From an uncultured Kangiella sp. (GTDB lineage: Bacteria; Pseudomonadota; Gammaproteobacteria; Enterobacterales; Kangiellaceae), in contig CATNCP010000017.1 in the NCBI GenBank assembly GCA_950096615.1, positions 1 to 54,514 on the forward strand: a DNA stretch of 54,514 nucleotides, in the 5' to 3' direction. This document shows positions 2,194 to 54,491 of the stretch, in pieces (positions within the stretch are counted from its first letter, which is position 1; the number at the start of each line of letters is the position of its first letter). The notes under the pieces were generated by a model. The model saw only the letters and a list, made by a program, of their open reading frames with translations. It was not told where the DNA came from and made no database searches. A program made the position numbers and the translations under genes.

Positions 2194-2369
2194 GTCATGA
2201 TTCGTTGTTTATTTTATGAGCATCATTGTGTCTGATTTTTAAACAAAGGAAAAGTTTATTTCATCTTAGAAGCAGTGGGACTTTTTAAAACTTAACATTT
2301 GTCGCTTGAGATAGAGGCGGCGTCTGTTTAAGGTGAATGGATAGCATTCATTATGAGCAAGGAGTTGTT

Positions 2370-3815
2370 ATGTCCAACACAGTTGAGTCGAACGTACGCC
2401 CAGAACCTGATGCAGAGTTGGTCCGTATTGCAGAATATATCGCTGACTATACCGTGGAGAGCCATGAGGCAATGACCACTGCTCGCTATTGCCTGATGGA
2501 TACGCTTGGCTGTGGCTTATTAGCACTACGCTATCCCGAATGCACGAAGCATCTAGGGCCACTGGCGCCCGGGACAGTTGTTCCAAACGGTGCGCGAGTG
2601 CCGGGCACACAATTCGAGATGGATCCTGTTAAAGCGGCCTTTGATATTGGCTGCATGATTCGCTGGCTGGATTACAACGATACTTGGCTAGCGGCGGAGT
2701 GGGGGCATCCTTCGGATAACCTTGGTGGTATTTTAGCCATTGCTGATTTTTTAAGTCGTCAGTCCATCGCTGAGGGTTACGCGCCGCTGACAATGAAAGC
2801 TGTTTTAGAAGCCATGGTTAAAGCGCATGAGATTCAAGGTGTATTAGCGCTGGATAATAGTTTCAATCGAGTTGGTCTAGACCACGTGATTCTAGTCAAA
2901 GTCGCTTCCACAGCGGTAATAACGCATATGATGGGTGGTAATCGCAATGACATTATAGATGCTGTGTCTCAGGCTTTTGTCGATGGTCAGTCGCTTCGGA
3001 CTTATCGCCATACGCCAAACACAGGTTCAAGAAAGTCGTGGGCAGCAGGTGACGCGACCTCTCGTGCAGTACGCTTGGCGATGATGACGTTGACTGGCGA
3101 GATGGGGTATCCAAGCGCGTTAAGCGCTAAAACCTGGGGCTTTTATGACGTTTCGTTTAACGGTAAGCCGTTTAGTTTTCAGCGTGATTTTGGTTCTTAT
3201 GTAATGGAGAACATCTTGTTTAAGATTTCTTACCCAGCTGAGTTTCATGGACAAACCGCGGTCGAAGCGGCTATTGAGTTGCATGATAAGGTTGCTGATA
3301 AACTTGACGACATCGAACGAATCGAATTAACAACTCATGAATCCGCGATACGAATTATTTCTAAAGAAGGCGAGCTACACAATCCTGCTGATCGCGATCA
3401 TTGTATCCAGTATATGGTCGCTTGCGGTTTACTATTCGGCGAGTTGAATGCGGATCACTATGAAGAAGATGTGGCTCAAGATGAACGAATTGACGCTCTG
3501 CGCGAAAAGATGACGCTTCAAGAAAATAAAGAATGGTCAAAAGATTACCATGAACCTAGCAAGCGCAGTATTGCTAACGCTGTTCAAGTGTTCTTTAAAG
3601 ACGGAAGTTCCACTGACAAAATCACGGTTGAGTATCCATTGGGTCATAGACGGCGCCGAAAAGAGGGCATTCCTGTGTTAATCGAGAAGTTCAAAAGCAA
3701 CGTCTACACACGCTTCCCTAAAAGACACGGCGAAGAAATTATTGATTTATGTCTTGATGAAGATGCGTTAATGGATACTCCGGTTAATGAGTTTATGAAC
3801 TTACTGATTATTTAG
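2370..3815 (+). CDS. prpD: MmgE/PrpD family protein (2-methylcitrate dehydratase-like)
   Basis: A protein of 481 residues from the ATG at 2370, chosen because AAGGAG (2359-2364) sits five bases upstream; an earlier in-frame ATG at 2337 has no such site. The length matches E. coli PrpD (483). Recognisable blocks are [42 protein letters not shown], and the substrate-channel stretch [14 protein letters not shown] near residue 225. PrpD dehydrates 2-methylcitrate to 2-methyl-cis-aconitate in propionate catabolism. prpB, prpC and acnD are not beside it, so the gene stands alone or the cluster is split. The assignment to PrpD rather than another MmgE relative rests on overall length and the conserved blocks. 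Confidence 0.85.
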
Positions 3816-6968: not shown

Positions 6969-7119
6969 TATGACATTTGTAGGTAAGTTTTGTGTTGATT
7001 GTAACACCTGTAACAACAATCTCGAATGATAGAGAAGATTGTTCGCACGATGCTTAAGAAGATTCCTATTTGTATCTTTTACGGGTATGATGATTTCTGG
7101 ATTACTACAGGAAGATATT

Positions 7120-7410
7120 ATGAAAAAAATCACTTATTTATTAATTGCTTGTGCAATGACTTTGCTTTTAACAGCATGTGGCGCGCCGACTATTGACGCT
7201 TCGAGCGAGAAGGCGATGCAAGAATCCATGGAAGAGATTACCAAGGACATGACTGAAGCTGAAAAAACTGAGTTTGGTATGGCTATCATGGCTGTTTCAA
7301 TGAAGGTTGCGATGTCAAACATGGGTAACCCTGAAAAAGCTGAAGAAGCAGTTCAAGACGCTTTAGACGGTAAAACTGCGGAAGAAGTTATTGAGATGAG
7401 CAAAGAGTAG
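7120..7410 (+). CDS. Small lipoprotein (DUF6694-like)
   Basis: A 96-residue predicted lipoprotein: MKKITYLLIACAMTLLLTAC ends in a lipobox with the acylated Cys at residue 20. The mature part is short, helical and acidic (SSEKAMQESMEEITKDMTEAEKTEF and NPEKAEEAVQDALDGKTAEEVIEMSKE), resembling the small DUF6694-type lipoproteins common in marine Gammaproteobacteria. The role is unknown. The ATG at 7120 is preceded by an AGGAAG site. A longer in-frame start at 7039 would destroy the signal peptide and is rejected. A strong terminator follows at 7440. Confidence 0.8.
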   Translation: MKKITYLLIACAMTLLLTACGAPTIDASSEKAMQESMEEITKDMTEAEKTEFGMAIMAVSMKVAMSNMGNPEKAEEAVQDALDGKTAEEVIEMSKE

Positions 7411-7439
7411 TCTTTTAACTCATTGTAATTTCAGGAAAA

Positions 7440-7461
7440 GCGCCTTCGGGCGCTTTTTTTT
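7440..7461 (+). terminator. Rho-independent terminator after the lipoprotein gene
   Basis: Stem gcgcc/ggcgc closed by a ttcg tetraloop (7440-7453), followed by eight T residues. Confidence 0.9.
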
Positions 7462-7519
7462 ATGCTTTTTTATTGTTGTAGGAGGACACTTTATTGCAAA
7501 TATGACTTGATTTGCAGAT

Positions 7520-7538
7520 GATAATTGTTATCATTCGC
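7520..7538 (+). promoter_or_regulatory. Fur-box-like site upstream of the TonB receptor gene
   Basis: GATAATTGTTATCATTCGC matches 14 of 19 positions of the classical Fur consensus GATAATGATAATCATTATC and lies 28 bases before the receptor start. Iron repression of the receptor/PepSY pair is inferred from this. Confidence 0.7.
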
Positions 7539-7565
7539 GCCATATTTCTAATTAAGGGCGAAATC

Positions 7566-9665
7566 ATGAAGTATTCGTTAATTTCAACAGCAGTAGTTGG
7601 GGCATTGGCGCTCTCTAGTCAAAGTGTTTTTGCAGATGAAAGTAAAGAAACAGAAACGATGGTGGTATCGGCAACTCGAGCACCATTACAGCAAAGCGCA
7701 GTTCCTGCTACTGTGACTATTATTGATGGCACAGAAATACGCCAACAACTGTCGGTAAGCAACTCACTGTCAGACATCTTGGGTAATTTACTGCCTTCTT
7801 ACAGCCCATCCAGACAGAAATTAACAAGTTCAGGCGAAACGCTTCGAGGTCGTACGCCTTTATATTTGATTGATGGCGTGCCACAGTCAAACCCTCTTAG
7901 AAATGGTTCGCGCTCAGGGAATACGATTGACCCGATGCTGATTGAGCGTGTGGAAGTGATTCATGGCGCCAGCGCTATTCAGGGCTTGGGCGCGAGTGGC
8001 GGTATTATTAATATCATCACTAAAACTGCTCGCAGTGGTACTGAGCATCAAGTGACGGCAGGGGTTTCTGCGCCAACGAGCGAAACATCGGAAGGCCTAT
8101 CTTATGATGCGGGTTATTTGGTATCCCACGGTGAGGGTCAATGGCAGTTTGTCGCTGGTGTTCATTTACGTGAAACAGGTATGTACGTTGATGGTAATGG
8201 AGAGTTAGTGGGCGTTGATACGACGCAAGGCGACACCATGGACTCAAGCAGCCAAGATATCTTTGGTAAGGTTATTTATCAGTTCAATAATGAACAACAG
8301 TTACAGTTAATGGTTAATCATTACGACCTTGCTACGAATGGCGATTATGTAACGGTTACGGGTGATCGTGCGAACGGTATTCCAGCGACTTCAGTGCGTG
8401 GCGATATTGAAGGTGATCCTGCGGAAAATGAAGTAACCACGGTTAGCTTAAACTTTAGCGATGCAGAATGGTTAGGCGCTGATCTGAAGTGGCAGCTATT
8501 CTCACAAGATTTCTCAGCACTGTATGGCGGTGGTCGTTTTGGAACCTTCCAAGATCCAGCTTTTGGCGCTGATCTTTATGATCAGTCGCGCAATGATTCA
8601 AACAAGCTAGGTTCGCGTATCACTCTGAACTGGTTAGAAGTTGCGGATACTAATGTTGATATTACTACCGGGTTAGACTTTTTACGTGATAGAACCTTCC
8701 AGGAGTTAGCCCAGACGGGTCGTAAGTGGGTGCCTGAAACAGATTTTGAGAACTGGGCGCCTTATTTACAGGCACGTTTAAATGAAGGCCCTTGGAGCTT
8801 CAGTGCTGGCTTGCGTTACGAATACGGTAAATTGATTGTTGATGACTTCACGACCTTAGCTTCTTACGGTAGTCAGGATGTTGAAGGTGGCGAGCCTTCG
8901 TTCAATGAATTATTGACCAACTTCGGCGTGGTCTATGAGTTTACTGATGAGTGGCGCGGTTTTATCAGTGTTTCAGAAGGGTTTAGCATGCCTGACGTGG
9001 GACGAGTTCTGCGTGGCATTGATCAACCAAACCTGTCGGTAGATACCTTCTTAAACCTACAGCCAGTATTGACTGAAAACAACGAAATCGGCGTCGAATA
9101 TTTAGGCCATGACTTAACATTGTCGGCCAGTTATTTCGAGTCTGATTCAGATTTAGGCGCACGTTTATCACCTAACGCTGATGGCATTTTTGAAGTTAAT
9201 CGTGAGAAGACAGAAATTAATGGCTTCGAATTATCAGCTGAATACGCGTTAACTCAAGACGCGAGTATCGGTGCCTTGTATGCCGATAATGATGGTGAGT
9301 TTGATAGTGATGATAACGGCCAAGTTGATACTAAGCTTGGTGGCCGCAATATTGCGCCTCGTCGCTTAAACCTCTTCTGGAACCACAGTTGGACCGGTAT
9401 GGTCGATAGTCGTCTGCAGTGGAACCATTTCTTTGACCGCGATATTTATTCTGGCGCAGAAGCCATTAATAACTTTAACGGCTATTCCAGGTTAGATTTC
9501 TCAGTGAGTATGTTAACCAACACAGTCGGTGAGTTTACGTTAGGCGTGGAAAACGTGTTAGACGAAGACTACTTCACTTACTATGCGCAAACTGCTGGTA
9601 ATGATGGACGCAACTTTAAAGGGCGAGGCCGTACCTTGCGCTTAAACTGGCGACATACATTCTAA
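7566..9665 (+). CDS. TonB-dependent outer-membrane receptor (probable ferric siderophore)
   Basis: A 699-residue receptor from the ATG at 7566, where a clear signal peptide begins and ends near SVFA. The upstream in-frame start at 7512 would place the Fur box inside the gene. The order is the TonB box ETMVVSATR, a plug domain (DGTEIRQQL..LSDIL, RGRTPLYLIDGVPQSN, IERVEVIHGASAIQGLGASGGIINIITK), and then a beta-barrel ending in an aromatic residue (LRLNWRHTF). Such receptors import ferric siderophores with TonB-ExbBD energy. The Fur-like box and the following PepSY-TM gene support an iron role. The ligand cannot be named from sequence. Confidence 0.9.
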   Translation: MKYSLISTAVVGALALSSQSVFADESKETETMVVSATRAPLQQSAVPATVTIIDGTEIRQQLSVSNSLSDILGNLLPSYSPSRQKLTSSGETLRGRTPLYLIDGVPQSNPLRNGSRSGNTIDPMLIERVEVIHGASAIQGLGASGGIINIITKTARSGTEHQVTAGVSAPTSETSEGLSYDAGYLVSHGEGQWQFVAGVHLRETGMYVDGNGELVGVDTTQGDTMDSSSQDIFGKVIYQFNNEQQLQLMVNHYDLATNGDYVTVTGDRANGIPATSVRGDIEGDPAENEVTTVSLNFSDAEWLGADLKWQLFSQDFSALYGGGRFGTFQDPAFGADLYDQSRNDSNKLGSRITLNWLEVADTNVDITTGLDFLRDRTFQELAQTGRKWVPETDFENWAPYLQARLNEGPWSFSAGLRYEYGKLIVDDFTTLASYGSQDVEGGEPSFNELLTNFGVVYEFTDEWRGFISVSEGFSMPDVGRVLRGIDQPNLSVDTFLNLQPVLTENNEIGVEYLGHDLTLSASYFESDSDLGARLSPNADGIFEVNREKTEINGFELSAEYALTQDASIGALYADNDGEFDSDDNGQVDTKLGGRNIAPRRLNLFWNHSWTGMVDSRLQWNHFFDRDIYSGAEAINNFNGYSRLDFSVSMLTNTVGEFTLGVENVLDEDYFTYYAQTAGNDGRNFKGRGRTLRLNWRHTF

Positions 9666-42573: not shown

Positions 42574-42790
42574 GTTTGACCTTGTTCATTTCCAGAATTG
42601 GATTTTGCAACCTATTATATAAGACTAGTTGCAAATATCTAGGTACGGTTTTTCAAGGATTTAACAAAGTTTGACATTGATTCAGTTATGGTTCATTTCA
42701 CTTTTGTTTTACTAATATACAAGCTCCCCAGAGGCTATTTATCAAGGATTAAGGCAATTTGGGGCTGGTGAAGACGAATAGGAGATGAGA

Positions 42791-44083
42791 ATGTTAAAAG
42801 TAATCAGTAAATACAGCGTAATCGCCTCAGCAGTGTTGTTGAGCATTTCAGGCGTCGATGCCAGTCAAGAAGCACAGAATCAGTCTATCGGTGCAGAAAC
42901 CAGTGCAGCGGTAACAACAGCTATTGCAAAGCGAGCTAAGACCACAACCGTGGTTAATGACAATCTGACCACACAGGTTCAAAAAGGCACAGCGACCTCG
43001 GCGGTTCGCAGTAATGTGTATACCAGCCAAAAGTCGAGCAGTGACCTTAAGCAAGAGTTTAAAGCATTCCAGAGCCTAGACTTTAAGAATGTTAAGAATC
43101 AAACCCGAGCAGCGATGAAAAAACAGCGTGAGACAGGTAGTAAATTGCCGAAAACGTCTGGCAAAGCGCAGAAAAATGGTCAAAACCACCTCTATATACA
43201 TGATGCGGCAGTCTTGTTGTTTGATGATTTAGATGGTGACGGTAACTATAGTCAGCTGCGCGTTGATTTTGATGTGGATTCTCATTATGCGGAGCATTTT
43301 GATGTGTATGCAGAACTATTCATTCGTAGAGTTGGAGATGCTCAGTGGACTCATTACTACACTACTGATGTATTCGAAATTTACTATGATTACAGTTCTG
43401 ACGAGTACAGCGTTACGACGCGTTTGAATACGGGATTCCCGCCAGGTAATTATGAGGTACTTATTGATTTATTTGAGTATGGTTATTCAGGGCTTGTTGA
43501 TACATTGGGACCCTATGATGACTATGACTTAACTAACTTGCCGTTAGAAGATAAGACGTATGAGTCTACCGGCGTGACTAGCGATACATATGTAGATAAC
43601 GTCAAAACTGAAATTTTTACAGATGCTGATGATGACGGTTTTTATCGAGAGTTTACCCTAACGTTTGATGTAGACACCCAAAGCAATACTGACCGCGATG
43701 TCTATGTAAACTTATACCAACGTAATAATGGCGGCTCTTGGCAGTTTGAGACTGAGTCAGATGTCTTTACTGTTTACGGGTTCAGTTCGGAAGATGCTTT
43801 TGAAATTAGTGGTAATTGGCAGTCGGGTTACCCGGCAAATTACTATGATTTCAGGTTAGAAGTTATTGACGCGAATACAGGGGAGGTCTTGGATGACGTT
43901 TCACCTGAGTTTTCATCATTACTTCAGGTTCCTCTCGAAGACGCTAACAACGATACTCGAGAATCTAACCCGAATCCGCCAAGCTCAACAACTAGCTCTG
44001 AATCTGGGGGAGGTAGCACCGGACTCTTGACCTTGATATTGCTAGGTTTATTAGGGGCTTGGAGGCAAAAAATCAAGCGCTAA
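42791..44083 (+). CDS. Choice-of-anchor H family protein with GlyGly-CTERM
   Basis: A 430-residue exported protein from ATG 42791, six bases after AGGAG (42780-42784). After a signal peptide and a Thr/Lys-rich region, two similar beta domains occur: IHDAAVLLFDDLDGDGNYSQLRVDFDVDSHY.. and EIFTDADDDGFYREFTLTFDVDTQSNTDRDVYVNLYQRNNGG. The end is ESGGGSTGLLTLILLGLLGAWRQKIKR, the GlyGly-CTERM sorting signal (Gly-rich, TM helix, basic end). It is recognised by rhombosortase, which cleaves the tail for export by type II secretion. Both should be encoded elsewhere in the genome. Confidence 0.85.
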   Translation: MLKVISKYSVIASAVLLSISGVDASQEAQNQSIGAETSAAVTTAIAKRAKTTTVVNDNLTTQVQKGTATSAVRSNVYTSQKSSSDLKQEFKAFQSLDFKNVKNQTRAAMKKQRETGSKLPKTSGKAQKNGQNHLYIHDAAVLLFDDLDGDGNYSQLRVDFDVDSHYAEHFDVYAELFIRRVGDAQWTHYYTTDVFEIYYDYSSDEYSVTTRLNTGFPPGNYEVLIDLFEYGYSGLVDTLGPYDDYDLTNLPLEDKTYESTGVTSDTYVDNVKTEIFTDADDDGFYREFTLTFDVDTQSNTDRDVYVNLYQRNNGGSWQFETESDVFTVYGFSSEDAFEISGNWQSGYPANYYDFRLEVIDANTGEVLDDVSPEFSSLLQVPLEDANNDTRESNPNPPSSTTSSESGGGSTGLLTLILLGLLGAWRQKIKR

Positions 44084-44612: not shown

Positions 44613-46853
44613 ATGAAACAACTGCTGATGATACTTTTGTTGCTTGCCGTCATAGCGCAAGCCAAAGCTGCCACTGACGACGGAATGTCTGTCATTAGTA
44701 TTCCTAAAGTTGATGCTAAGATTACGGTCGATGGACGCTTGGACGAACCTTTCTGGCAGAAAGCGACAAAAGTCGAATACCGTTATGAAACGCAGCCGAG
44801 CAGAAATGTGGCGCCTAAAGTCAAAACCGTAGCGTATGTAGCAGAAAACGGTGACTCCTTACTGGTGGCTATCAAAGCTTATGACCCTAACCCTGAATTA
44901 ATACAAGCCTCTTACAAAAAGCGTGATCAAATTTTCGGTGAAGATACCGTTGGTTTTAAGGTCGATACATTCAACGATGAACGTAAAGCATACAACTTCT
45001 TTGTTAACCCTCTGGGCATTCAGAGCGACAGCATCGAAGACGATGTCTTGCTCAGAGAAGATTCATCGTGGGACGCGATTTGGTACAGTGCTGGCCATTT
45101 CGATGATGACGGTTATACGGTTGAAATTGAGCTGCCTTTCAAGATATTACGCTTCCCTAACACCTCGGGACAGAAAACCTGGGGCATTGACTTCATGCGC
45201 TTTTATCCAAGAGATGTCCAATATCGTTTAGCCTATTCGCCAAACGATCGAGATTTAAGCTGTGTGCTATGCCAAATCGCTAAAGCTGAAGGTCTAGATG
45301 ATATTGTTAGTGGTAATAACTTAGAAATTACACCCTATGTCTCCGCAGAGCAGGGTGAGTTTCGTTCACCTCCTACACAAACAAAGTGGCAAGGGGAGGG
45401 AGTGAACTATAATGCTGGTGCCGATTTGCGCTGGGGAGTAACTGATAACTCCGTCTTGAATGCCACGATCAATCCTGACTTTTCACAAGTTGAAACTGAT
45501 GCAGCACAGCTGGAAGTTAATAATAGATTTTCCTTATTTTTCTCTGAGAAACGCCCTTTCTTCCTCGATGGTGCTGAATACTTTAATACTCGATATAACT
45601 TGCTACATACTAGAAATATTGCCGATCCAGATTACGGTGTGAAGTATACGGGCAAAAACGGTGGCCATTCATACGGTGTCTTAGTGTCACGAGATCAAGC
45701 TACTAGCTTCATTATTCCCGGCGCTCAAAGCTCTTCCGTCTATACTCTTCTGGACAGCAATTTTGATGATGTCGAAAGTGATGTTGCAGCTGCCCGTTAT
45801 TCTATGGATGTGGGGGATAACTCCCAGGTTGGCTTCTTAGCAACCAACCGTTCGGCTGAAGGATATGAAAATACGGTCTTGTCGATAGATGGTAGTCAGA
45901 AGCTCTATGATGCTGGGACACTGCGTTATCAGGTAATGTATTCTGACTCTGATAATACAGATGATATGCAGCAACGGTTTGGGTTAGACCCGAATACAAC
46001 TGGGCGTGGTTTTGAACTGAACTACAGCCATCGTGATACCCATTGGAATTGGTACGCGACACATTCAGATTTTGATGATGACTTTAGAACAGATTTAGGT
46101 TTCTTGGGTGTGGTTGGCAACACAAAAGATGTGGTGGGATTAGGGTATCGCTGGTATGGCGAAGAGGGTGATTTTTTCCATGAGTATAAGGTTAGTGGCG
46201 AGTATAAAGAGCGGCATCTGACCTCTGGCCAAAAGTATGAGCAGCAAAGAGAAGTTGGCTTTCAGATGAGCGGAAACTACCGTTCCTTCTTTTATTTTGG
46301 CAGCGCTAACCGAGACACTTTGTATCAACAAATGTGGTTTGATGAAGAGTACTTTTGGATGGAAAGTAGTTTTCGCCCAGTAGGTAGTTTAAGACTGGGT
46401 TTGTACCTCGAAACCGCGGACACTATTGATTTTAGGCATGATAGGCCCGGGCACTCTGACACATACGAGCTTTATACGGAGTGGCAAGTAAACGATCATT
46501 GGAGTTTAGGTTTTGATGCGAGCCGTACTAATTTTGATGTGAATGATGAGTCGCTTTTTGAGGCCGTCATTAGTAATTTAAACACCAGCTATCACTTTGA
46601 TGATAAAAGTTATTTACGATTAATTGTTCGTTATAGTGATGTTGATTACAACACGGCGCTTTATTCTGATCCGACGCAAGTGGAAAAGGAAATAAAGGTT
46701 AGTCGCCAACTGTTATATGCCTATAAGTGGAACCCTAAGACTGCTTTCTACTTAGGTTATTCGGACAATGGCTTCGAAGATGATCGAGTGAATCAATTTG
46801 AAAAAACAGGAAGAACTTTATTCACTAAATTTAGTTATGCCTTCCAGCTTTAA
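44613..46853 (+). CDS. DUF5916/CBM9-like outer-membrane protein
   Basis: A 746-residue exported protein. A signal peptide (KQLLMILLLLAVIAQAKA) is followed by a CBM9-like sandwich (about 30-210; ITVDGRLDEPFWQKAT, and WDAIWYSAGHFDDDGYTVEIELPFKILRFP is the signature) and then a long beta-barrel-like C-terminal part with NPDFSQVETDAAQLEVNNRFSLFFSEKRPFFLDG. It ends in an amphipathic strand (TLFTKFSYAFQL). DUF5916 proteins are common in marine bacteria near carbohydrate or peptide use genes. The ligand is unknown. It is monocistronic with a terminator. Confidence 0.88.
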   Translation: MKQLLMILLLLAVIAQAKAATDDGMSVISIPKVDAKITVDGRLDEPFWQKATKVEYRYETQPSRNVAPKVKTVAYVAENGDSLLVAIKAYDPNPELIQASYKKRDQIFGEDTVGFKVDTFNDERKAYNFFVNPLGIQSDSIEDDVLLREDSSWDAIWYSAGHFDDDGYTVEIELPFKILRFPNTSGQKTWGIDFMRFYPRDVQYRLAYSPNDRDLSCVLCQIAKAEGLDDIVSGNNLEITPYVSAEQGEFRSPPTQTKWQGEGVNYNAGADLRWGVTDNSVLNATINPDFSQVETDAAQLEVNNRFSLFFSEKRPFFLDGAEYFNTRYNLLHTRNIADPDYGVKYTGKNGGHSYGVLVSRDQATSFIIPGAQSSSVYTLLDSNFDDVESDVAAARYSMDVGDNSQVGFLATNRSAEGYENTVLSIDGSQKLYDAGTLRYQVMYSDSDNTDDMQQRFGLDPNTTGRGFELNYSHRDTHWNWYATHSDFDDDFRTDLGFLGVVGNTKDVVGLGYRWYGEEGDFFHEYKVSGEYKERHLTSGQKYEQQREVGFQMSGNYRSFFYFGSANRDTLYQQMWFDEEYFWMESSFRPVGSLRLGLYLETADTIDFRHDRPGHSDTYELYTEWQVNDHWSLGFDASRTNFDVNDESLFEAVISNLNTSYHFDDKSYLRLIVRYSDVDYNTALYSDPTQVEKEIKVSRQLLYAYKWNPKTAFYLGYSDNGFEDDRVNQFEKTGRTLFTKFSYAFQL

Positions 46854-46909: not shown

Positions 46910-47902
46910 TTAGGAAAAGAAGCGCTTAGTCGCCTCATCAGGCAGTTCTAAACCTGTCACTTCTGCTCGCTGTAAAAGCTGCCAATAGTAACGATAAGTT
47001 GCGCGGTCATGCAGCTCACCATCATATTGGATAGGGCCCCAATGATTATCTTGGGCGGCAACTAGGATATTTGCTGCGTCATTAACTTCGGAATAATCCG
47101 GCTTCATAGCATCCACAATCGACTGGATCTGAATCGGATAAATACTCCACATGCGCAGGAAGCCGTATTCATTACGAGCCCGCTCAGCATCTTTGTACGT
47201 TTGGTACGGATTTTTCAGATCAAGCGTGACGTTATGAGACGGTACGACGCCGTTTGCTAAGGCAGCAGTAGCCATTTCAGACTTGGCTCTTGCAAGAAGA
47301 GGGTGATCAAACTGCCCGGGACTGCGCATACATGATGCAGGTATCGCGCCTTGATGATCACTGACAAAATCCATCATGCCAAAGTCTAGGACTTGAACCC
47401 AATCTACCGCCGCAATGTCCCATACTTCTTTTAACGCGCCATGGGTTTCAATCAATACATGAATTGGAATATCTCGATTGACACCGTGCTCTTGAGCTTT
47501 GGCCTTGATGTAGTCCACCATTTCTTGGATATGCGCTGCTCGGTGCGTTTTCGGTAGGGTAAAGTAAGCGATTCGGTCTCCAATAGCGGGCATTAAGATA
47601 TCGACATCGGCTTTCCAGTGGTCATGGGTATAGTCATGAATTCGCACACCAGCCATGTGATGCTTGTTGATATCACTGGACAGAACCCGAGCTATCATTT
47701 CAGCATGTTCTTTCTCCTTGCCAGCTTGAGCACCATCTTCGCAGTCACAGGTAATATCAAACACAGGGCCGAACTTTTCCTGTAATTCCAATGCTTTAGT
47801 GATGAGTTTTTCGCTACCAGCGAAGTGTTCACAAGTTGGTATTACGGGGAACTGTTTTTCGGCATTAAACAATGCTTCGTTTGGATGAACCATCGAATTC
47901 AC
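46910..47902 (-). CDS. CitE/HpcH-family lyase A (aldolase/citrate-lyase-like)
   Basis: A 330-residue protein. GTG start 47902 is favoured by an AGGAG six bases upstream. FDITCDCEDGAQAGKEKEHAEMIARVL is the N-terminal Asp/Glu metal-loop block, HVLIETHGALKEVWDIAAVDWVQVLDFGMMDFVSDHQGAIPAS carries the Mg ligands Glu and Asp, and RMWSIYPIQIQSIVDAM replaces the usual KWAIHPKQ block. It is the most diverged of the three lyases here. The family cleaves malyl-, citramalyl- or citryl-CoA esters. It is read divergently from the ligase operon with a dyad between. Confidence 0.85.
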   Translation of the reverse strand: MNSMVHPNEALFNAEKQFPVIPTCEHFAGSEKLITKALELQEKFGPVFDITCDCEDGAQAGKEKEHAEMIARVLSSDINKHHMAGVRIHDYTHDHWKADVDILMPAIGDRIAYFTLPKTHRAAHIQEMVDYIKAKAQEHGVNRDIPIHVLIETHGALKEVWDIAAVDWVQVLDFGMMDFVSDHQGAIPASCMRSPGQFDHPLLARAKSEMATAALANGVVPSHNVTLDLKNPYQTYKDAERARNEYGFLRMWSIYPIQIQSIVDAMKPDYSEVNDAANILVAAQDNHWGPIQYDGELHDRATYRYYWQLLQRAEVTGLELPDEATKRFFS

Positions 47903-47993
47903 TATTTTCTCCTCTTAAATCAATGATATAGCTAAAGCTAATTGTAAAACGCATTAGCCATCTTTTGCTTAATACTAACGATAGATTAGAAAA

Positions 47994-48026
47994 ATTCAAA
48001 CAATAATTTGAAATAAGCGTTTGAAT
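47994..48026. promoter_or_regulatory. TTCAAAC dyad between divergent lyase genes
   Basis: attcaaac (47994-48001) is mirrored by gtttgaat (48019-48026), and an inner tttgaa (48007-48012) adds a third half-site. It is a candidate operator shared by the divergent promoters of the CitE-like genes. Confidence 0.5.
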
Positions 48027-48066
48027 ATGGTTTATTTATGAACTACCACTGGTCGGATTAGTTGAA

Positions 48067-49188
48067 ATGATGCAAGAGCATTCCTTTTTAGAAAAAGTAG
48101 ATGAGCAAATGGTGTTAGGGGGGTATTGGCCTGGGATTCAGCTATATTACCCGCCAGTGAAGTATTCGCCAGCTGATGGTATCTACGAAACCATGGAGCA
48201 AGCTTCCAATCGAATGCGCAAGTATGCTCACAATACCAGCGCACATACATTACTGTTCGATTTAGAAGATGGATGTCGCCAAAAGGAGATGAGTCGAGAG
48301 CTACTGCGGAAAGAATTGCCGCTATTTGAGGAACGTCAATTTCAAATTGCTTTGCGTATCAACCCTTTTCGTACCGATGAGTACGAAGAAGATTTGAAGT
48401 TAATTAAAGAATGCGCAGAGTATATTGATGTCATCATTTTAGCAAAAGCCGGTGAAGTGTATGGCGCGGCTGAAATTAGAGATTTATCGGCCTGGCTGGT
48501 CGGCGTTAATCCTAAGATTGAGATTCAACCCATTATTGAGCATCCACGCTCGTTAAAAATCTCTCCTGAATTGATGCAGTACTCCACAGTTCGACACGTG
48601 GTTTTTGGTATTCATGATTTCTCGAAAGCCATGGCGATTCACTTAACGCCAGAAGGTTGGATTGACGAGCTAAAAACATACTTGAGAATGCTGCTGTTAG
48701 AAGCACGTATTGCCGGTAAAGGAGTGATAGGCGGGGTTGAAGTATTGATTAATAAAACGCCAATGCCTGAGTCCTATATTGAGCCAAACGATGTTAGGCG
48801 TTGGTTAGATTTACACGGAGAGCATGAATCACATGTAGTGCACCAACATGCGCTCGTAGAAGCGCAAATGGGCTTGACCGGTAAACAAGTTATTCATCCT
48901 TTCCATGTTCACCTGTGTAAGACTGCATTCACACCATCGCCACTGCAAATCAAACGCAATGTGCACATACTAGAGCAGGCGATTGAAGCTGATGCGTTAT
49001 TAGGTGGAGCGATTAAGTTTGAAGGTGAAATGCTAGATCCACCAATGTTTGGTAAGGCTTTACAAAGTTTATTGCGTGCTTATGCGTTGAAGTCACTCGG
49101 TGATAAAGACAAAGCATTTGCTATGGATGTTATTAAACGGTTGCCGGTTCATGTTATTCGAGAAAACTGGCCATACGGAATGATCTAA
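48067..49188 (+). CDS. CitE/HpcH-family lyase B
   Basis: A 373-residue protein, longer than classic CitE (about 290-320). HTLLFDLEDGCRQKEMSRELLRKEL is the metal-loop block, IQPIIEHPRSLKI holds the Glu ligand, and HVVFGIHDFSKAMAIHL the Asp ligand. TGKQVIHPFHVHLCKTAFTPS is the C-terminal IHP block, intact here. An N-terminal extension (about 1-45, LGGYWPGIQLYYPPVKYSPADG) and a C-terminal one (after about 310) are not part of the usual family. The gene's TAA overlaps the ATG of the ligase by one base (TAATG), so the two are translationally coupled. Confidence 0.87.
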   Translation: MMQEHSFLEKVDEQMVLGGYWPGIQLYYPPVKYSPADGIYETMEQASNRMRKYAHNTSAHTLLFDLEDGCRQKEMSRELLRKELPLFEERQFQIALRINPFRTDEYEEDLKLIKECAEYIDVIILAKAGEVYGAAEIRDLSAWLVGVNPKIEIQPIIEHPRSLKISPELMQYSTVRHVVFGIHDFSKAMAIHLTPEGWIDELKTYLRMLLLEARIAGKGVIGGVEVLINKTPMPESYIEPNDVRRWLDLHGEHESHVVHQHALVEAQMGLTGKQVIHPFHVHLCKTAFTPSPLQIKRNVHILEQAIEADALLGGAIKFEGEMLDPPMFGKALQSLLRAYALKSLGDKDKAFAMDVIKRLPVHVIRENWPYGMI

Positions 49189-50831
49189 TGAAGTATCAAT
49201 TCGATGACATATTACAACAGGATTCCGGTGGCGTTTGGAATTGGAACCTGCCCAAGCATTTTAATATTGCAGAAGCTTGTGTCGACCAACATACTGGTAC
49301 ATTTAAAGCGACACAAGCGGCGCTCATCATCGAGAATGAGACCTTGGGACAAAGCTCAGTTACCTATGACGAACTGTCCTGTTTAACGTCTCAATTTGCC
49401 AATGTATTAGCTGCTCATGGATTAGAGCACGGTGAGAGAATATTGATACGTTTGTCTAACTCTATCGAATATCCCGTATCATTCTTTGGTGCTATCAAAT
49501 TCGGAGCCGTAGCGGTTCCTACCTCAACGCTATTATCAGCCAGCGAAGTTGCGTATTTGGCAAAAGACTCTGGCGCAAAAGTGTTAGTAACTGAGAAGTC
49601 GATGTGGCCAGAGTTGTCTGGTGAACTTGATGATTCACAAGTGACTTTAGTTCTTCTTTGTGGTGAGGGCACGGTAGGTCAAAGCCACCAATTTACATTG
49701 ATTGATTTACACCAAGCGCTGGAGAAGCAGGACAATGCATTCGAGTGTCACCAGAGCGAAGTTAACGATCCTGCATACTTAGTTTATACCTCCGGTACAA
49801 CAGGTTATCCGAAAGGAGTACTTCATGCACAACGTGCTTTATTAGGACGTTTACCGGCCAGTAAGTTTTGGTTTGATCTCGACGACTCAACTACTGAGCG
49901 TATTATGCACTCAGGCAAGTTTAATTGGACCTATGTGTTAGGCTCAGCTCTGATGGACCCCTTGTTACATGGTCATACGGTTATTGCTTATGAAGGTAAA
50001 AATGACGCTCAGACCTGGCCAACGTTAATTAAAAAGCATGAATGCTCCATATTCATTGGAGTACCGACGATTTACCGTCAAATTGTGCAAAAAACGGATT
50101 ATGACGGTAGTGATTTGCCTTCGCTCAAGCACTGCATGAGTGCTGGTGAGCACCTTTCCGACGAGATGCAAAATATTTGGGAAGAGCGGTTCGGTAAACC
50201 TATCTATGAAGCGATCGGCATGTCTGAGGTGTCTTATTATATCTCTCAACATAAAGGTGTTGAGGTTTTACCCGGCGCTGCTGGCTTTGTACAGCCCGGG
50301 CATTATGTCGAGCTATTAGACTCTGAATATAAAGCTGTAGCCACGGGCGAAGAGGGCATGATCTGTATTCGTGAGGATGATCCCGGCTTGTTCCTGAGTT
50401 ATTGGAATTTAGCAGACGCCACATCAGAGGCGCGCCATGACGGTTGGTTCTTTACCGGTGATTATGCACGACAAGATGAAAACGGCTATATCTGGTTCCT
50501 AGGGCGAAAAGACGACATTATCAATACGTTTGGTTTTCGCGTTTCTCCGCATGAAGTGGAGCGCGTCATTAAGGCGCACGAAGCGGTCGCTGACTGCGTT
50601 GCTATTGGTGAAGAGGTCGGTTCGGATAAAACCTTAGTCTCGATTTGTGTTATCAGAGAGCCTACAGCCAATATTTCTGAAGATGAACTATTGGACTATG
50701 GTTTAGAAAAACTGGCTAAATATAAAGCGCCAAAAAAAGTCCATTTTATGGAAAGCTACCCCAGAACAAAGAACGGTAAAGTGTTGCGCAAACAACTGAT
50801 TCAAGACATTCAAAGTAAAGGTGTAAAGTAA
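49188..50831 (+). CDS. AMP-forming acyl-CoA synthetase
   Basis: A 547-residue adenylate-forming ligase. The phosphate loop is LVYTSGTTGYPKGVLHAQRAL (about 198-216), the Y.AIGMSEVS motif holds the adenine side, WFFTGDYARQDENGYIWFLGRKDDIINTFGFRVSPHEVE is the hinge and Asp-Gly block, and the catalytic Lys is in PRTKNGKVLRK. The acyl pocket cannot be read from sequence. It resembles medium-chain and acetyl-CoA-type synthetases. Position between two CitE-like genes suggests that it activates a carboxylic acid fed into the lyase route. It overlaps both neighbours by one base. Confidence 0.92.
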   Translation: MKYQFDDILQQDSGGVWNWNLPKHFNIAEACVDQHTGTFKATQAALIIENETLGQSSVTYDELSCLTSQFANVLAAHGLEHGERILIRLSNSIEYPVSFFGAIKFGAVAVPTSTLLSASEVAYLAKDSGAKVLVTEKSMWPELSGELDDSQVTLVLLCGEGTVGQSHQFTLIDLHQALEKQDNAFECHQSEVNDPAYLVYTSGTTGYPKGVLHAQRALLGRLPASKFWFDLDDSTTERIMHSGKFNWTYVLGSALMDPLLHGHTVIAYEGKNDAQTWPTLIKKHECSIFIGVPTIYRQIVQKTDYDGSDLPSLKHCMSAGEHLSDEMQNIWEERFGKPIYEAIGMSEVSYYISQHKGVEVLPGAAGFVQPGHYVELLDSEYKAVATGEEGMICIREDDPGLFLSYWNLADATSEARHDGWFFTGDYARQDENGYIWFLGRKDDIINTFGFRVSPHEVERVIKAHEAVADCVAIGEEVGSDKTLVSICVIREPTANISEDELLDYGLEKLAKYKAPKKVHFMESYPRTKNGKVLRKQLIQDIQSKGVK

Positions 50832-51736
50832 TGGAAACAACGATCAATTATCGTCCACGTCGCACGATGCTGTATGTGCCAACCCATGTTGAGCGTTATA
50901 TGGATAAAGCCCGGACATTGGATGCTGATAGCATTGTTTTCGATTTCCAAGAATCGGTCCCACCAGAGCAAAAAGAAGCTGCGCGTCAGCTATTGAGGGA
51001 GAAACTCTTACAGTCGTGTGATTACCAGTATTCGGAAATAGTTGTTCGCGTAAACCCTCTGGATAGTGAGTGGGGAGATGATGATTTAAAAGCAATCGCA
51101 GACTTAAGTATTGATGCAATCATGTTGCCTCGTATTGAGTCGGTTGAGCAGTTAAATAATGCCATCACCAGAATTGATGAGCTTCGCGGGGACACTGTTG
51201 ATATTATGATTAATATTGAAAGCCCTCTTGGTGTACTTCATTCTGAGAAAATTTGCGGCGCTAGTGACAGAGTTGTTGCGGTCGTTATGGGAACGACTGA
51301 TTTGTCGAATGAGCTAAAAATCAATCAAACGAAAGACAGGCTAGGTTTGCTAACCAGTCTGTCATTAGTGATTCTTGCTGCAAGGGCGCATAAGAAGTGC
51401 GTGATAGACGGGCCACACTTTGATTTAAAAAGTGTCGAAGCTTGTGAGTTCTCTTGTCGTCAAGCACGCGATTTGGGGTTTGATGGTAAGGCTGTGGTTC
51501 ATCCGATTCAATTGGCCTACACCAATGATGCTTTTACGCCGAAACAAATGGATATTGCTAGAGCTAAAGCCATTATTGAAGCGATTGAGCAGGCCAACAA
51601 AGAGGGTCGCAATGTTGCTGTGATTGATGGTAGGCTAATTGAACCTTCACTTCGTGAGTGGGCGGAGCGAGTGATAACTTTATATAATACCGTCAAAGCA
51701 ATAGGGCAGAATGAGCTATTAGGGGTGGTACGCTAG
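50831..51736 (+). CDS. CitE/HpcH-family lyase C (CoA ester lyase)
   Basis: A 301-residue lyase of the classic CitE/malyl-CoA lyase length. YRPRRTMLYVPTHVERYMDKARTLDADSIVFDFQESVPPEQKEAARQLL is the standard opening, IMINIESPLGVLHSEKI has the Glu ligand, VVAVVMGTTDLSNEL the Asp ligand, and GFDGKAVVHPIQLAYTNDAFTP the C-terminal block. VIDGPHFDLKS corresponds to the substrate-Asp region of citramalyl/malyl-CoA lyases. Expected product pairs are acetyl-CoA plus pyruvate (from citramalyl-CoA) or acetyl- or propionyl-CoA plus glyoxylate (from malyl-type esters). Start codon overlaps the ligase stop (TAATG). Confidence 0.92.
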   Translation: METTINYRPRRTMLYVPTHVERYMDKARTLDADSIVFDFQESVPPEQKEAARQLLREKLLQSCDYQYSEIVVRVNPLDSEWGDDDLKAIADLSIDAIMLPRIESVEQLNNAITRIDELRGDTVDIMINIESPLGVLHSEKICGASDRVVAVVMGTTDLSNELKINQTKDRLGLLTSLSLVILAARAHKKCVIDGPHFDLKSVEACEFSCRQARDLGFDGKAVVHPIQLAYTNDAFTPKQMDIARAKAIIEAIEQANKEGRNVAVIDGRLIEPSLREWAERVITLYNTVKAIGQNELLGVVR

Positions 51737-51756
51737 CCCAAGCTCTAGAGGATTCT

Positions 51757-52815
51757 ATGAATAAAGCATCAACCGGACACTTCTTTGAAGACTTTTCATT
51801 AGGGCAGGTTCTATACCATGCAGTCTCTCGCACGATCACTGAAGCTGATACGAGCCTCTATACCGCATTAACGGGAAGCCGCTTTAGCCTTTACTGCAAT
51901 AAAGAATTTGCACAGCAGTTGGGTTATGCGAAGCTACCTGTTGATAATTTGTTGCTATTTCAAATTGCCTTTGGCAAAACCGTTGACGACATTTCTCTAA
52001 ACGCCGTTGCAAATCTAGGCTATGCTGAGGTCGAATTTTTAGAGCCAGTTTTTGTTGGTGACACTATTAGTGTAGCGTCTGAAGTTATTGGCTTAAAAGA
52101 GAATTCAAATGGTAAAACCGGTATCGTTTATGTCCACTCAAAAGCTGTTAATCAGCAAGGTTTTCAAGTGCTCAGCTGGAAGCGCTGGGTCATGGTCCAT
52201 AAGCGTCAAGAAGGCATGCAAAACACTTTTGCTGTTCAGCCCCAGTTAGCGAATAAAGTCTCTTTCGAAAGCTTAGCCGCTCCTCAGTCGTTTAACCCAG
52301 CAGCTTATGACTCTAAGCTCAGTGGTGAAAGCTTTAAACTTAATGATTATGAAGTCGGCGAGTGGATCGACCATATTGATGGCTTAACCATCGACCATAG
52401 TGAACATACTATGGCAACCAAGCTTTATCAAAACAACGCCAAGGTTCACTTCAATCAACATCACATGTCATCATCTAAGCATCAAAAACGTTTGGTTTAT
52501 GGTGGCCATGTCATTTCTTTATGCCGCACTATTTCTCACAATGGCTTAGCCAATGCTCAATGGTTAGCAGCAATCAATGGTGGTGCGCACCTGAATCCAA
52601 GCTTTGCTGGGGATACTATTTATGCAGCGACACAGGTGTTAGAAACTCAGGAGCTAGGTTCCGGACTGGGTGCCATGCGTTTGCGAACGTTAGGTTATAA
52701 GAATTGTTTATGGCAGGAGTTAAAGCCCCAGTTTGAAAGAGCTGTGAAGGATAAAGCACAGCTCCCATCAGACTTTGTACTCGACTTGGACTATACCGTA
52801 CTTATCCCGTCATAA
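51757..52815 (+). CDS. Double-hotdog MaoC hydratase (mesaconyl/itaconyl-CoA hydratase-like)
   Basis: A 352-residue protein with two hotdog halves: residues about 8-150 (FFEDFSLGQVLYHAVSRTITEADTSLYTALTGSRFSLYCNKEFAQQLGY) and about 195-350 (LNDYEVGEWIDHIDGLTIDHSEHTMATKLYQNNAKVHFN). VHFNQHH and RLVYGGHVISLCRT are the hydratase-like His and Gly regions of the second half. The length and layout are those of mesaconyl-CoA hydratases, which interconvert 2-methylfumaryl-CoA and beta-methylmalyl-CoA. Last gene of the ligase/lyase operon, 20 bp after lyase C. Itaconyl-CoA or another unsaturated acyl-CoA is also possible. Confidence 0.87.
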   Translation: MNKASTGHFFEDFSLGQVLYHAVSRTITEADTSLYTALTGSRFSLYCNKEFAQQLGYAKLPVDNLLLFQIAFGKTVDDISLNAVANLGYAEVEFLEPVFVGDTISVASEVIGLKENSNGKTGIVYVHSKAVNQQGFQVLSWKRWVMVHKRQEGMQNTFAVQPQLANKVSFESLAAPQSFNPAAYDSKLSGESFKLNDYEVGEWIDHIDGLTIDHSEHTMATKLYQNNAKVHFNQHHMSSSKHQKRLVYGGHVISLCRTISHNGLANAQWLAAINGGAHLNPSFAGDTIYAATQVLETQELGSGLGAMRLRTLGYKNCLWQELKPQFERAVKDKAQLPSDFVLDLDYTVLIPS

Positions 52816-52941: not shown

Positions 52942-54387
52942 CTAGATAACCTCACCAGCGCGTACAATTTTCATCGCATTGGTACCACCTAAAGTCCCCA
53001 TGGAGTCACCTTTGGTGATAATAACCAGATCGCCATGCTGTACGTGCCCATGGTTGACTAATTCATCTACGGCTAAGCGGTTCACGTCATGACGCGCCAA
53101 TACGGTTGGGTCGAACTCTAAAGCTTCAACACCACGATATAAAGACACTTTACGTAAAGTTTCATTGCTGCGACTGAGAGCAAAAATAGGAATGCCTGAA
53201 CGGATACGGGATAACCATAGGGCAGTGGAGCCTGATTCAGTTAATGCGACGATGGCTTTTACGCCTTTCAAATGGTTGGCGCTATACATGGCTGCCATCG
53301 CGATAGTCTCATCGATACGTTCAAACTCGATATCAATTCGATGATTAGAGGTTTTAGCGAGGGACTGGTTTTCAGCACCTTGGCAAACATTTGCCATGGC
53401 ATCAACAGTGCGAGCAGGGTTATCACCAGTCGCAGTTTCAGCGCTTAACATGACGGCATCAGTGCCATCTAAGATAGCATTGGCAACATCAAATACTTCA
53501 GCACGCGTTGGGATAGGGTTGTGAATCATACTTTCCATCATCTGAGTTGCTGTGATAACAACACGATTTAGGGCACGCGCACGATCGATGATACGCTTCT
53601 GGACACCGATTAACTGAGCATCACCAATTTCAACACCTAAGTCGCCACGTGCGACCATAACAGCATCAGAAGCTAGGATGATTTCGTCCAAAATGGTTTC
53701 GTCATTGACTGTTTCTGCACGCTCGATTTTTGCTACTAACGCTGAGTTACCGCCAGCCTCTTGCAGTAGCTGACGAGCTTCCTCAATGTCGGCAGCACTG
53801 CGAGGGAATGATACGGCTAAGTAATCCACATCCATGCTTACTGCGGTTTTAATGTCTTCTTTGTCTTTCTCTGTCAGAGCGGGAGCAGATAAGCCGCCGC
53901 CAAGAAGGTTGATACCTTTATTATTGCTTAGCACGCCACCAACAATGACTTTGCATACAATAGTAGTCGACGTGGTTTCAGTGACTTGAAGTTGAATTCG
54001 ACCATCGTCTAACATCAAATGATTGCCTGCTTTAACATCGTTTGGCAGATCTTTGTAGTCAATGCCGACGGAGTCTTCTGTGCCGTCATTTCTGTCAAGC
54101 TCAGCATCCAGCGTAAACTGATGGCCTGCTGTTAACATGACTTTGTCAGACTTGAACTTAGCTATTCGGATTTTTGGCCCTTGCAAATCGCCGAGCACGC
54201 CAATGTACTTGTCCATTTCTTTGGCAATCTTACGGATCTTCTTTGCTCGCTTAATATGGTCTTCCGCTTCTCCGTGGGAAAAGTTCAGCCGAAAGACGTT
54301 AGCGCCAGCTTCAATCAAAGAGCGTATCGCTTCTTCAGTATCGGTAGCAGGCCCCAGTGTGGCGACAATTTTGGTTCTCTTTAGCAT
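52942..54387 (-). CDS. pyk: Pyruvate kinase
   Basis: A 481-residue enzyme from ATG 54387 (a GTG at 54396 is also in frame). [43 protein letters not shown] is the standard start. Substrate and metal residues are in [38 protein letters not shown], and [38 protein letters not shown] is the conserved effector-proximal block. It makes pyruvate and ATP from phosphoenolpyruvate. A terminator from the gene upstream sits about 105 bp before its start. Confidence 0.97.
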
Positions 54388-54491
54388 ACAATTCACTTCT
54401 TAAAGACTTAAGAATAGTGTAAAGATATCGACAATGAATACAACTACATTTTGATGAAATCGTTACCAAAATTAACAGTGGTTGAGGCAAT

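Follow-up and report, generated by a model that had tools for sequence, protein, structure and literature searches.

A five-gene block of Kangiella as the possible core of a citramalate-type replacement for the glyoxylate shunt

The window analyzed here, meaning the whole stretch of 54,514 nt, comes from an uncultured Kangiella sp. of the Kangiellaceae (assembly GCA_950096615.1, contig CATNCP010000017.1, positions 1-54,514 of the forward strand). The initial annotation had claimed five adjoining genes, and all five reading frames were found. Lyase A (46910-47902, minus strand) is CitE-like and belongs to the 3qqw/3r4i family; on the plus strand follow lyase B (48067-49188), from a distinct CitE-like family, an AMP-forming acyl-CoA ligase with an AMP-binding domain (49188-50831), the CitE-like protein C (50831-51736) and a double-hotdog hydratase (51757-52815). 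The one-base overlaps reported between B and the ligase and between the ligase and C were confirmed (TAATG at the junctions), as was the divergence of one CitE-like gene, A, from the other two, and C is separated from the hydratase by 20 bases. Such overlaps are not universal, B and the ligase being one base apart in locus L005. A profile search of the window's genome found PF03328 matches in A, B and C only. The window also holds prpD, for 2-methylcitrate dehydratase (2337-3815, plus strand; TIGR02330, 844.6 bits against a cut-off of 458), which lies 44 kb from the block.

Residue conservation was counted over 31 aligned rows for A, 30 for B and 34 for C, the window included and matches covering less than 85% of the query length left out. 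All six catalytic positions are intact in every row of both A and B. A is proposed to be a (beta-methyl)malyl-CoA lyase and B an (S)-citramalyl-CoA lyase or citramalate synthase, the substrate of B being suggested by gene position and distant homology. For B, 22 other rows are 65-99% identical, and its predicted structure, of low confidence (mean pLDDT 64.5), supports a CitE-like fold only, with malyl-CoA lyases and CLYBL as the nearest structures. The curated RipB and RipC models scored at best 130.4 of 340 and 133.3 of 375 bits on the block proteins. Among seven plasmid regions, taken from 15 plasmid records with A at an identity of at least 50%, a hydratase homologue directly precedes A in three; in the other four A occurs without the hydratase, which we count against the reading preferred below. 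A hydratase-A pair also lies beside CoA-transferase, PrpD-family and acyl-CoA dehydrogenase genes in C. oxalaticus (L065).

In C, the catalytic aspartate is replaced by a glutamate (Glu271) in all 34 rows. According to the portion of PMC3832036 available to us, this change at the catalytic Asp of the lid marks malyl-CoA thioesterases, and R. sphaeroides has a malyl-CoA lyase with a paralogous malyl-CoA thioesterase, a pair that A and C resemble in type. Because the substitution is typical of such thioesterases, C is probably not a lyase. The proposal of three CitE-like lyases in a combination unlike any described pathway therefore holds for the number of CitE-like proteins but not for the number of lyases, given the thioesterase-type Glu and altered metal-site residues of C, and the R. 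sphaeroides pair makes it less novel. The first residue of the Glu-Asp pair of C is Glu in only 4 of the 34 rows, the metal Glu is retained in 30 and the metal Asp in 32; the window's own C has Gln-Glu in place of Glu-Asp, with both metal residues present. Loss of the metal-binding Glu from C in four loci (L006, L023, L024 and L028) also counts against our preferred reading. C thus shares the Glu-for-Asp exchange in the lid with the malyl-CoA thioesterase (Mcl2) group but differs from it at the Mg2+-site residues, and since these conserved residues are altered we did not file C as an Mcl2 member.

The gene after C, described from the start as a MaoC hydratase, indeed matches MC_hydratase (PF19315; 71.2 bits, cut-off 26.5), MaoC and FAS1_DH. 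Its product is ∼50% identical to PDB 4e3e, the nearest solved hydratase, which we take to come from Chloroflexus, and also matches 8hgn, named beta-methylmalyl-CoA dehydratase; these similarities back the suggested C5-dicarboxyl-CoA chemistry. As far as homology can tell, the enzyme belongs with the mesaconyl-CoA hydratases, and we propose it as a mesaconyl-C1-CoA hydratase. The ligase is proposed to act on mesaconate or citramalate, and its predicted structure backs an acyl-CoA synthetase fold only. A role as propionate ligase is unlikely because the prp cluster of L081 has a separate frame that passes the PrpE cut-off and L082 has a similar one, and because the block ligase carries Gly344 in 22 of 22 rows where these PrpE-like frames have Trp, presumably a meaningful position for a propionate ligase. 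The Kangiella block has this AMP-forming enzyme where a CoA-transferase gene might be expected from related pathways.

The complete five-gene set is present in 29 of the 35 loci found via the hydratase, so that its grouping is not a matter of chance. The initial annotation had spoken of a four-gene block, but in the gene-neighborhood check B, ligase, C and hydratase never occurred without A among the 35 hydratase loci, nor did A, C and hydratase occur without B and the ligase. In all 29 complete loci the ligase adjoins B, and in 28 C adjoins the hydratase, a frame intervening in L015; the C-hydratase pair also appears in four alphaproteobacterial loci (L018, L020, L021 and L035). The adjacency of ligase and B also fits a ligase that feeds B, and we scored it against our preferred reading. 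Two gene orders were seen, one in Kangiella/Pleionea and the other in Gallionellaceae/Nitrosomonadales, and the bearers include both marine Kangiella and iron-oxidizing bacteria. Across 398 genomes sampled evenly from the phylum, B was found in the window's own genome only. An acyl-CoA thioesterase gene adjoins A in L016, L017 and L019. Saturation of dS in 17 of 19 comparisons meant that no dN/dS ratio was used.

On a single contig of a Methylophilales genome (G458 C66, L034 and L088), maeB-sdhCDAB-B-ligase-fumI, with ligase and fumI overlapping by ATGA, diverges from C-hydratase-A-prpB-prpC-prpD, bringing the block together with class I fumarase, prpBCD, succinate dehydrogenase and malic enzyme. 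A polyketide or lipid neighborhood, which the initial annotation had named as evidence against its proposal, was not seen among the typed frames, which are part of the neighbors. The context (prpBCD, succinate dehydrogenase, malic enzyme, class I fumarase and no glyoxylate shunt) points to central metabolism rather than to a catabolic island.

The divergent gap between A and B contains a palindromic element (47995-48025), a candidate operator by its conservation across block loci, which reads TTCAAAC-N4-RTTTGAA with an overlapping second copy. It is present in the A/B gap of all 17 gammaproteobacterial block loci, and 26 of its 27 matches in 315,252 bases fall in that gap (∼1.8 expected), the matches not being independent because the loci are related. 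Within the window alone, allowing two mismatches, seven matches were found against 3.96 expected, a number reached by 13 of 100 shuffles and so not unusual. The element resembles what we take to be the PsrA site. In the accounts of PsrA available to us, it regulates fatty-acid degradation and, in Shewanella, aceBA. The conserved palindrome and this role of PsrA were counted in favor of the preferred reading. We dropped a FadR-like interpretation of the stretch immediately ahead of B because the literature at hand offered no usable consensus.

We searched 61 genomes, the window's own and 60 relatives, for B, malate synthase and isocitrate lyase. Strong B matches occur in 35, and full-length isocitrate lyase is found in none of these versus 15 of the 26 genomes without B, malate synthase in one versus 16, an anticorrelation that is confounded by ancestry, as 33 of the 35 B genomes belong to one family. 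By profile search, the window's genome has no malate synthase and its isocitrate lyase match is PrpB-sized only. The isocitrate lyase-superfamily proteins of 14 further block-bearing genomes are likewise PrpB-sized, with a second one, of 359 aa, in one genome; G450, G451 and G452 match G030, G024 and G027 at the same coordinates and were taken to be those genomes, which is why we count 14 and not 17 new block bearers. One Kangiella genome (G015) has neither B nor isocitrate lyase nor malate synthase, so the genus can do without such a route, a point against our preferred reading.

PrpD, methylmalonyl-CoA mutase (MCM), methylaspartate ammonia-lyase, fumarase and crotonyl-CoA carboxylase/reductase (Ccr) were sought in 21 chosen genomes. 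Ccr exceeded its cut-off in one, an alphaproteobacterium (G453) that has no full block, and the MCM family (PF01642) was found in none of four Kangiella genomes, the window's included. Methylaspartate ammonia-lyase reached 21.1 bits in the window's genome (cut-off 27); seven of the 21 genomes pass (26.3-29.7 bits, two with neighboring pieces added), five of them with B, and we read these matches, which cover part of the profile in frames of 368-441 aa, as enolase-superfamily cross-matches. By the Ccr, MCM and ammonia-lyase searches, then, the ethylmalonyl-CoA and methylaspartate sources of mesaconyl-CoA were not found in the window's genome. Among 16 B-bearing genomes, five (G023, G035 and G450-G452) match the MCM family with frames of ∼1,130 aa, which may give propionyl-CoA a different route in these bacteria; PF03972 (PrpD) gave no match in six and only a weak one in G450. 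Both results weigh against the reading preferred below. Some block bearers thus have a mutase-type gene instead of, or besides, the methylcitrate route. One end of contig C23 of the window's genome carries prpB, a fragment of prpC and class I fumarase. In Kangiella G007 the order is fumI-prpB-prpC-acnD-prpF, with all four prp/acn genes scoring above curated cut-offs, which speaks for the preferred reading; fumI-prpB-prpC also occurs without B (G015 and G029), which speaks against it. Class I fumarase, a mesaconase family, does not discriminate, since all 21 genomes match PF05681 whether they have B or not (both halves above cut-off in the window's genome; the G457 match is just a 332-aa frame with 30% identity to its Kangiella counterpart).

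Tentatively, and at somewhat less than an even chance, we read the block as the core of a citramalate-cycle-like anaplerotic route that would replace the glyoxylate shunt; an AMP-forming ligase would take the place of a CoA-transferase, and the methylcitrate cycle would deal with propionyl-CoA in Kangiella. B would join acetyl-CoA and pyruvate to (S)-citramalyl-CoA or citramalate, the class I fumarase, whose gene is present and whose activity is suggested by its family, would convert (S)-citramalate to mesaconate, and the ligase would activate mesaconate at C1 with ATP. The hydratase, with support from its family, would yield beta-methylmalyl-CoA, which A, judged by superfamily and context, would split into propionyl-CoA and glyoxylate. 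A may also join glyoxylate to a second acetyl-CoA, with C, by its signature, hydrolyzing malyl-CoA to malate in place of malate synthase. In Kangiella, where the genes were found, methylcitrate enzymes would turn propionyl-CoA and oxaloacetate into succinate and regenerate pyruvate. Leaving aside the malate-forming step, the net conversion would be acetyl-CoA plus oxaloacetate to glyoxylate plus succinate, equal to that of citrate synthase, aconitase and isocitrate lyase. The direction of flow is one we infer. Further points count against the scheme: it assigns no enzyme to citramalyl-CoA hydrolysis, and the Gallionellaceae, as autotrophs, would hardly seem to require a route for assimilating acetyl-CoA. 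The more far-reaching version, a full citramalate-type bypass with free citramalate and mesaconate and a new mesaconate-CoA ligase, in which "propionate" and "C5" modules would jointly do the work of the glyoxylate shunt in Kangiella and iron-oxidizing Nitrosomonadales, is possible but doubtful.

The flow might instead be reversed, A and the hydratase joining propionyl-CoA and glyoxylate into mesaconyl-CoA, C releasing mesaconate, fumarase forming (S)-citramalate, the ligase making citramalyl-CoA and B cleaving it to acetyl-CoA and pyruvate. Such a route would correspond to the loop by which the 3-hydroxypropionate bi-cycle assimilates glyoxylate, but driven by ATP. Every enzyme would then be used once and both irreversible steps would pull that way; the pairing of ligase with B and of C with hydratase, and the presumed Chloroflexus origin of 4e3e, speak for it, and the metal-site residues gone from C would be unneeded for a substrate without a hydroxyacid. 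However, propionyl-CoA supply would have to match glyoxylate while methylcitrate genes compete for it, and the absence of isocitrate lyase is not explained by this flow itself. We think it unlikely.

Catabolism of an externally supplied C5 dicarboxylate (mesaconate, citramalate, itaconate or methylsuccinate), the idea of the initial annotation, with activation by the ligase and cleavage to propionyl-CoA plus glyoxylate, to acetyl-CoA plus pyruvate, or to both, is possible but strikes us as rather unlikely. The setting of the C. oxalaticus hydratase-A pair does resemble the methylsuccinate cluster in the available part of PMC12290011, but the block is conserved in Gallionellaceae and tied to an absent glyoxylate shunt, the RipB/RipC scores fall far below cut-off, and besides a GntR regulator no further family, transporters aside, is common to most of the listed loci. 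That only the lower half operates, from mesaconyl-CoA of an unrecognized source to glyoxylate, propionyl-CoA and malate, with B and the ligase unrelated to citramalate, is the least probable. It gains from the positional and distant-homology basis of the B and ligase assignments and from the low-confidence model of B, yet B and the ligase are present wherever A, C and the hydratase occur together among the 35 hydratase loci, and the searches of the window's genome showed no other mesaconyl-CoA source.

Of the known systems, the preferred shunt-replacement reading is closest to the citramalate cycle, which, in the parts of the sources at hand, was proposed for Rhodospirillum rubrum in 1997 and is not explicit in KEGG (PMC8307300), and is still to be proven (PMC4682846). 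Both would lead from acetyl-CoA and pyruvate through citramalate, mesaconate, mesaconyl-CoA and beta-methylmalyl-CoA to propionyl-CoA and glyoxylate, but the cycle has a mesaconate CoA-transferase and passes propionyl-CoA through methylmalonyl-CoA, whereas the block has an AMP-forming ligase, Kangiella has methylcitrate genes, and for the block a gene set can be named. The lower half of the ethylmalonyl-CoA pathway has the same three reaction types (mesaconyl-CoA hydratase, malyl-CoA lyase and malyl-CoA thioesterase); the window's genome differs in having no Ccr above cut-off and no MCM-family mutase, and the block in drawing A from another CitE-like family and in the altered metal-site residues of C. 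The methylaspartate cycle of haloarchaea shares mesaconate activation, hydration, cleavage and an apparent malate synthase, but uses a CoA-transferase and a methylaspartate ammonia-lyase, which is not above cut-off in the window's genome; its hydratase is a separate lineage in the part of PMC5592240 available. The glyoxylate loop of the 3-hydroxypropionate bi-cycle likewise links propionyl-CoA and glyoxylate to acetyl-CoA and pyruvate via mesaconyl-CoA; the Kangiella block has no CoA-transferase gene, and free mesaconate/citramalate and ATP are proposed for it instead. Itaconate degradation (ripABC) shares CoA activation, a hotdog hydratase and a CitE-like lyase, with a CoA-transferase in place of the ligase.

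If true, our preferred reading would extend the known enzymes by a ligase for C5 dicarboxylates and, with B, by a distinct CitE-like family, and the gene set would open the citramalate cycle to direct tests in cultured bacteria whose genomes are small. The published view, as given in the available text of PMC6000758, that Kangiella, having neither isocitrate lyase nor malate synthase, is inert in gluconeogenesis would then need revision as well.

The five frames of the block lie where the initial annotation placed them, with A on the reverse strand (46910-47902) and B (48067-49188), the ligase (49188-50831), C (50831-51736) and the hydratase (51757-52815) on the forward strand, and one-base overlaps do join the ligase to B and to C. 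In a Pfam search of the window A, B and C matched HpcH/HpaI (PF03328), the ligase AMP-binding, and the double hotdog MC_hydratase, MaoC and FAS1_DH; a genome-wide profile search of the 2.57-Mb genome to which the window belongs (G000, contig C17) found PF03328 in A, B and C only. A neighborhood search across Gammaproteobacteria had been proposed, and the block does recur, all five genes being together in 29 of the 35 loci obtained with the hydratase as query, although it extends beyond that class. Sixteen of the complete loci (Kangiella, Pleionea, and other Gammaproteobacteria) have A on the reverse strand against B-ligase-C-hydratase, and the remaining 13 (Gallionellaceae, other Nitrosomonadales, and one Methylophilales genome) have ligase-B against C-hydratase-A, B and C being separated by a common gene (cluster cl5; all three of its typed members are GntR/UTRA). 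Contig ends cut the block in loci L029 and L036, and four alphaproteobacterial loci, one of them a 3.6-kb contig (L035), hold C and the hydratase only. The block is conserved and real.

Several neighbors were also recorded. A pyruvate kinase comes after the block in the window (52942-54396, reverse strand) and likewise in 11 of 12 loci (L004-L014 and L037; L009 ends earlier); in Pleionea (L083) a pyruvate kinase borders a prpBCD-fumarase operon instead. Just upstream of A, here and in Kangiella loci, is a DUF5916 protein (44613-46853, forward) with no obvious link to the block, and a choice-of-anchor H family protein (42785-44083, forward) matches NF038116 in two stretches and has no Pfam match. 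In three Nitrosomonadales-type loci a frame of malic enzyme-phosphotransacetylase type (756-762 aa) adjoins the ligase (L024, 1039-3312; L025, 147-2414; L028, 279-2564), typed in L024 only.

The gap between A and B carries a palindrome, TTCAAAC-N4-RTTTGAA or a near form, in all 17 gammaproteobacterial block loci. Across 315,252 bases there are 27 matches (at least 12 of 14 letters), of which 26 fall in this gap, against ∼1.8 expected from block-wise shuffles; this shows conservation and not 26 independent events because the loci are related. With two mismatches allowed, the window alone holds seven matches against 3.96 expected, a number reached by 13 of 100 shuffles and thus not unusual. Sixteen fumarase/prp loci gave a single match. 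It lies in L084, is perfect, and falls within a small predicted frame, 131 bases ahead of a fumarase-prp operon. The 13 Nitrosomonadales-type loci likewise gave one, in a frame of L027 that lies apart from the block. We take the palindrome of the A/B gap to have the shape of a candidate PsrA site. Fatty-acid degradation is under PsrA control, as are aceBA, sdh, and gltA in Shewanella (PMC3223726, PMC5343134).

The assignment of the hydratase to the mesaconyl-CoA type holds, with ∼50% identity to PDB 4e3e and a match to 8hgn, a β-methylmalyl-CoA dehydratase by name. Protein A groups with 3qqw (E 1e-143) and 3r4i (E 1e-110), both listed merely as citrate lyases, and the six catalytic positions are kept in 31 of 31 rows of A and 30 of 30 of B. 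B is highly conserved, with 65-99% identity to that of the window in 22 other rows, and is rare, occurring among 398 genomes of the phylum in the window's own only. A hydratase homologue (46-49%) directly precedes A in three of seven fetched plasmid regions (Sphingobium, C. metallidurans, and C. oxalaticus) and in none of the other four. In a Burkholderia cenocepacia record (L064) the A homologue (8001-8963) lies close to frames matching succinate dehydrogenase and PrpD, to an AcnD-like frame, and to a GntR that shares 56% identity with its Methylophilales counterpart, and no hydratase match was found in the region; this setting appears to be one of central metabolism, yet it is a warning on the exact role of A. 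In L016 (1894-2781), L017 (1948-2805), and L019 (2005-2862), A has as a neighbor an acyl-CoA thioesterase (PF02551) that could hydrolyze one of the CoA esters of the pathway or have no connection with it. The nearest solved relatives of the ligase are medium-chain, anthranilate, and benzoate ligases, and it fell under the cut-off of every one of the 25 NCBIfam models listed, out of 107.

The initial annotation had counted three lyases, and it is C that departs from this description. In the CitE superfamily, as described in PMC3832036, the lid aspartate is conserved except in the Rhodobacter sphaeroides malyl-CoA thioesterase group, which has glutamate, and a Glu-Asp pair and the metal residues are called absolutely conserved. 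C has the thioesterase-type glutamate at the lid position in 34 of 34 rows. At the leading position of the pair, 17 rows carry Gln, 13 carry Gly, and only four, all alphaproteobacterial, carry Glu. Ala replaces the metal Glu in L006, L023, L024, and L028, and the metal Asp is also changed in L023 and in L006 (C at 7046-7948). Because of the lid glutamate and these departures, C would at best be thioesterase-like, and loss of function may be under way in some genomes; in these four loci it is possibly a pseudoenzyme in an otherwise intact block.

Among 61 genomes (the window's own and 60 relatives), 35 have B and one more a weak match. Full-length isocitrate lyase (frames of at least 390 aa matching both sides of the profile) was found in 15, none of the 35 with B versus 15 of the 26 without, and malate synthase (PF01274) in 17, one with B versus 16 without, an anticorrelation confounded by kinship in that 33 of the 35 belong to one family. 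That family also includes four B-less genomes; malate synthase occurs in two of them, accompanied by isocitrate lyase in one, and Kangiella genome G015 lacks B and both shunt enzymes. Kangiella is described as devoid of both shunt enzymes in PMC6000758. The remaining isocitrate lyase superfamily protein is PrpB-sized in 34 of the 35 B genomes, the exception being 55% complete; in regions from G000, G007, G014, G023, G035, G049, and others these are PrpB matches adjoining PrpC and class I fumarase, that of G007 passing the prpB cut-off. The block is present in 17 of 18 genomes reached through the loci, counted as 14 new ones since G450-G452 seem to be the same genomes as G030, G024, and G027. 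These 14 have PrpB-sized proteins only, save an extra 359-aa frame in G449, and malate synthase was not found in six of seven tested, G457 having two pieces at contig ends.

The window carries prpD (2337-3815). No methylmalonyl-CoA mutase-family match was found in four Kangiella tested, nor any crotonyl-CoA carboxylase/reductase, or methylaspartate ammonia-lyase over cut-off, in the window's genome. The gene set for closure by the methylcitrate cycle can be shown in Kangiella and in some Nitrosomonadales but not in all bearers of B, because among 16 B genomes mutase-family matches (∼1,130-aa frames) occur in five (G023, G035, G450, G451, and G452) and PF03972 is missing from six (G023, G035, G449, G451, G454, and G459) and weak in G450; G449, which was examined for AcnD, has an AcnD-like frame. 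Class I fumarase is present in 21 of 21 genomes, with B or not, and adjoins prpB-prpC also in B-less G015 and G029. On contig C66 of a Methylophilales MAG (G458; L034 and L088), maeB, sdhCDAB, B, the ligase, and class I fumarase follow on one strand, the last two overlapping at ATGA, and C, the hydratase, A, prpB, prpC, and prpD lie on the divergent strand, the prp genes over curated cut-offs. C66 carries every proposed enzyme except oxaloacetate handling; being a single MAG contig, it demonstrates that such linkage can occur, not that it is usual.

PMC8307300 describes the citramalate cycle as a proposal that KEGG does not show explicitly, and PMC4682846, whose tested class I fumarases hydrate mesaconate, as still to be proven. 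In a search mostly of papers open without subscription, mesaconyl-CoA hydratase and methylisocitrate lyase were co-mentioned only in two Paracoccus papers, one on Arcobacter, and the review PMC8307300; seven papers mentioned both Kangiella and glyoxylate, and none linked Kangiella to malyl-CoA or combined three of Gallionella, Sideroxydans, glyoxylate, and methylcitrate, although a description elsewhere is possible. In the route we propose, acetyl-CoA and pyruvate would enter via B, and fumarase and the ligase would act next; propionyl-CoA and glyoxylate would then be released by the hydratase and A, and A with C would form malate from glyoxylate and acetyl-CoA. The substrates of B, the substrate of the ligase, and citramalyl-CoA hydrolysis are its weak steps. 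Run in reverse, the same enzymes would consume propionyl-CoA and glyoxylate, and the order of the genes is compatible with either direction; we consider the reverse less likely and prefer the anaplerotic direction because the shunt is missing, C bears the thioesterase signature, and the L034 operon runs from A into prpBCD. The block may tentatively be read as an anaplerotic citramalate-type route in which, in Kangiella, the methylcitrate cycle would yield succinate and return pyruvate, the total being that of the glyoxylate shunt.
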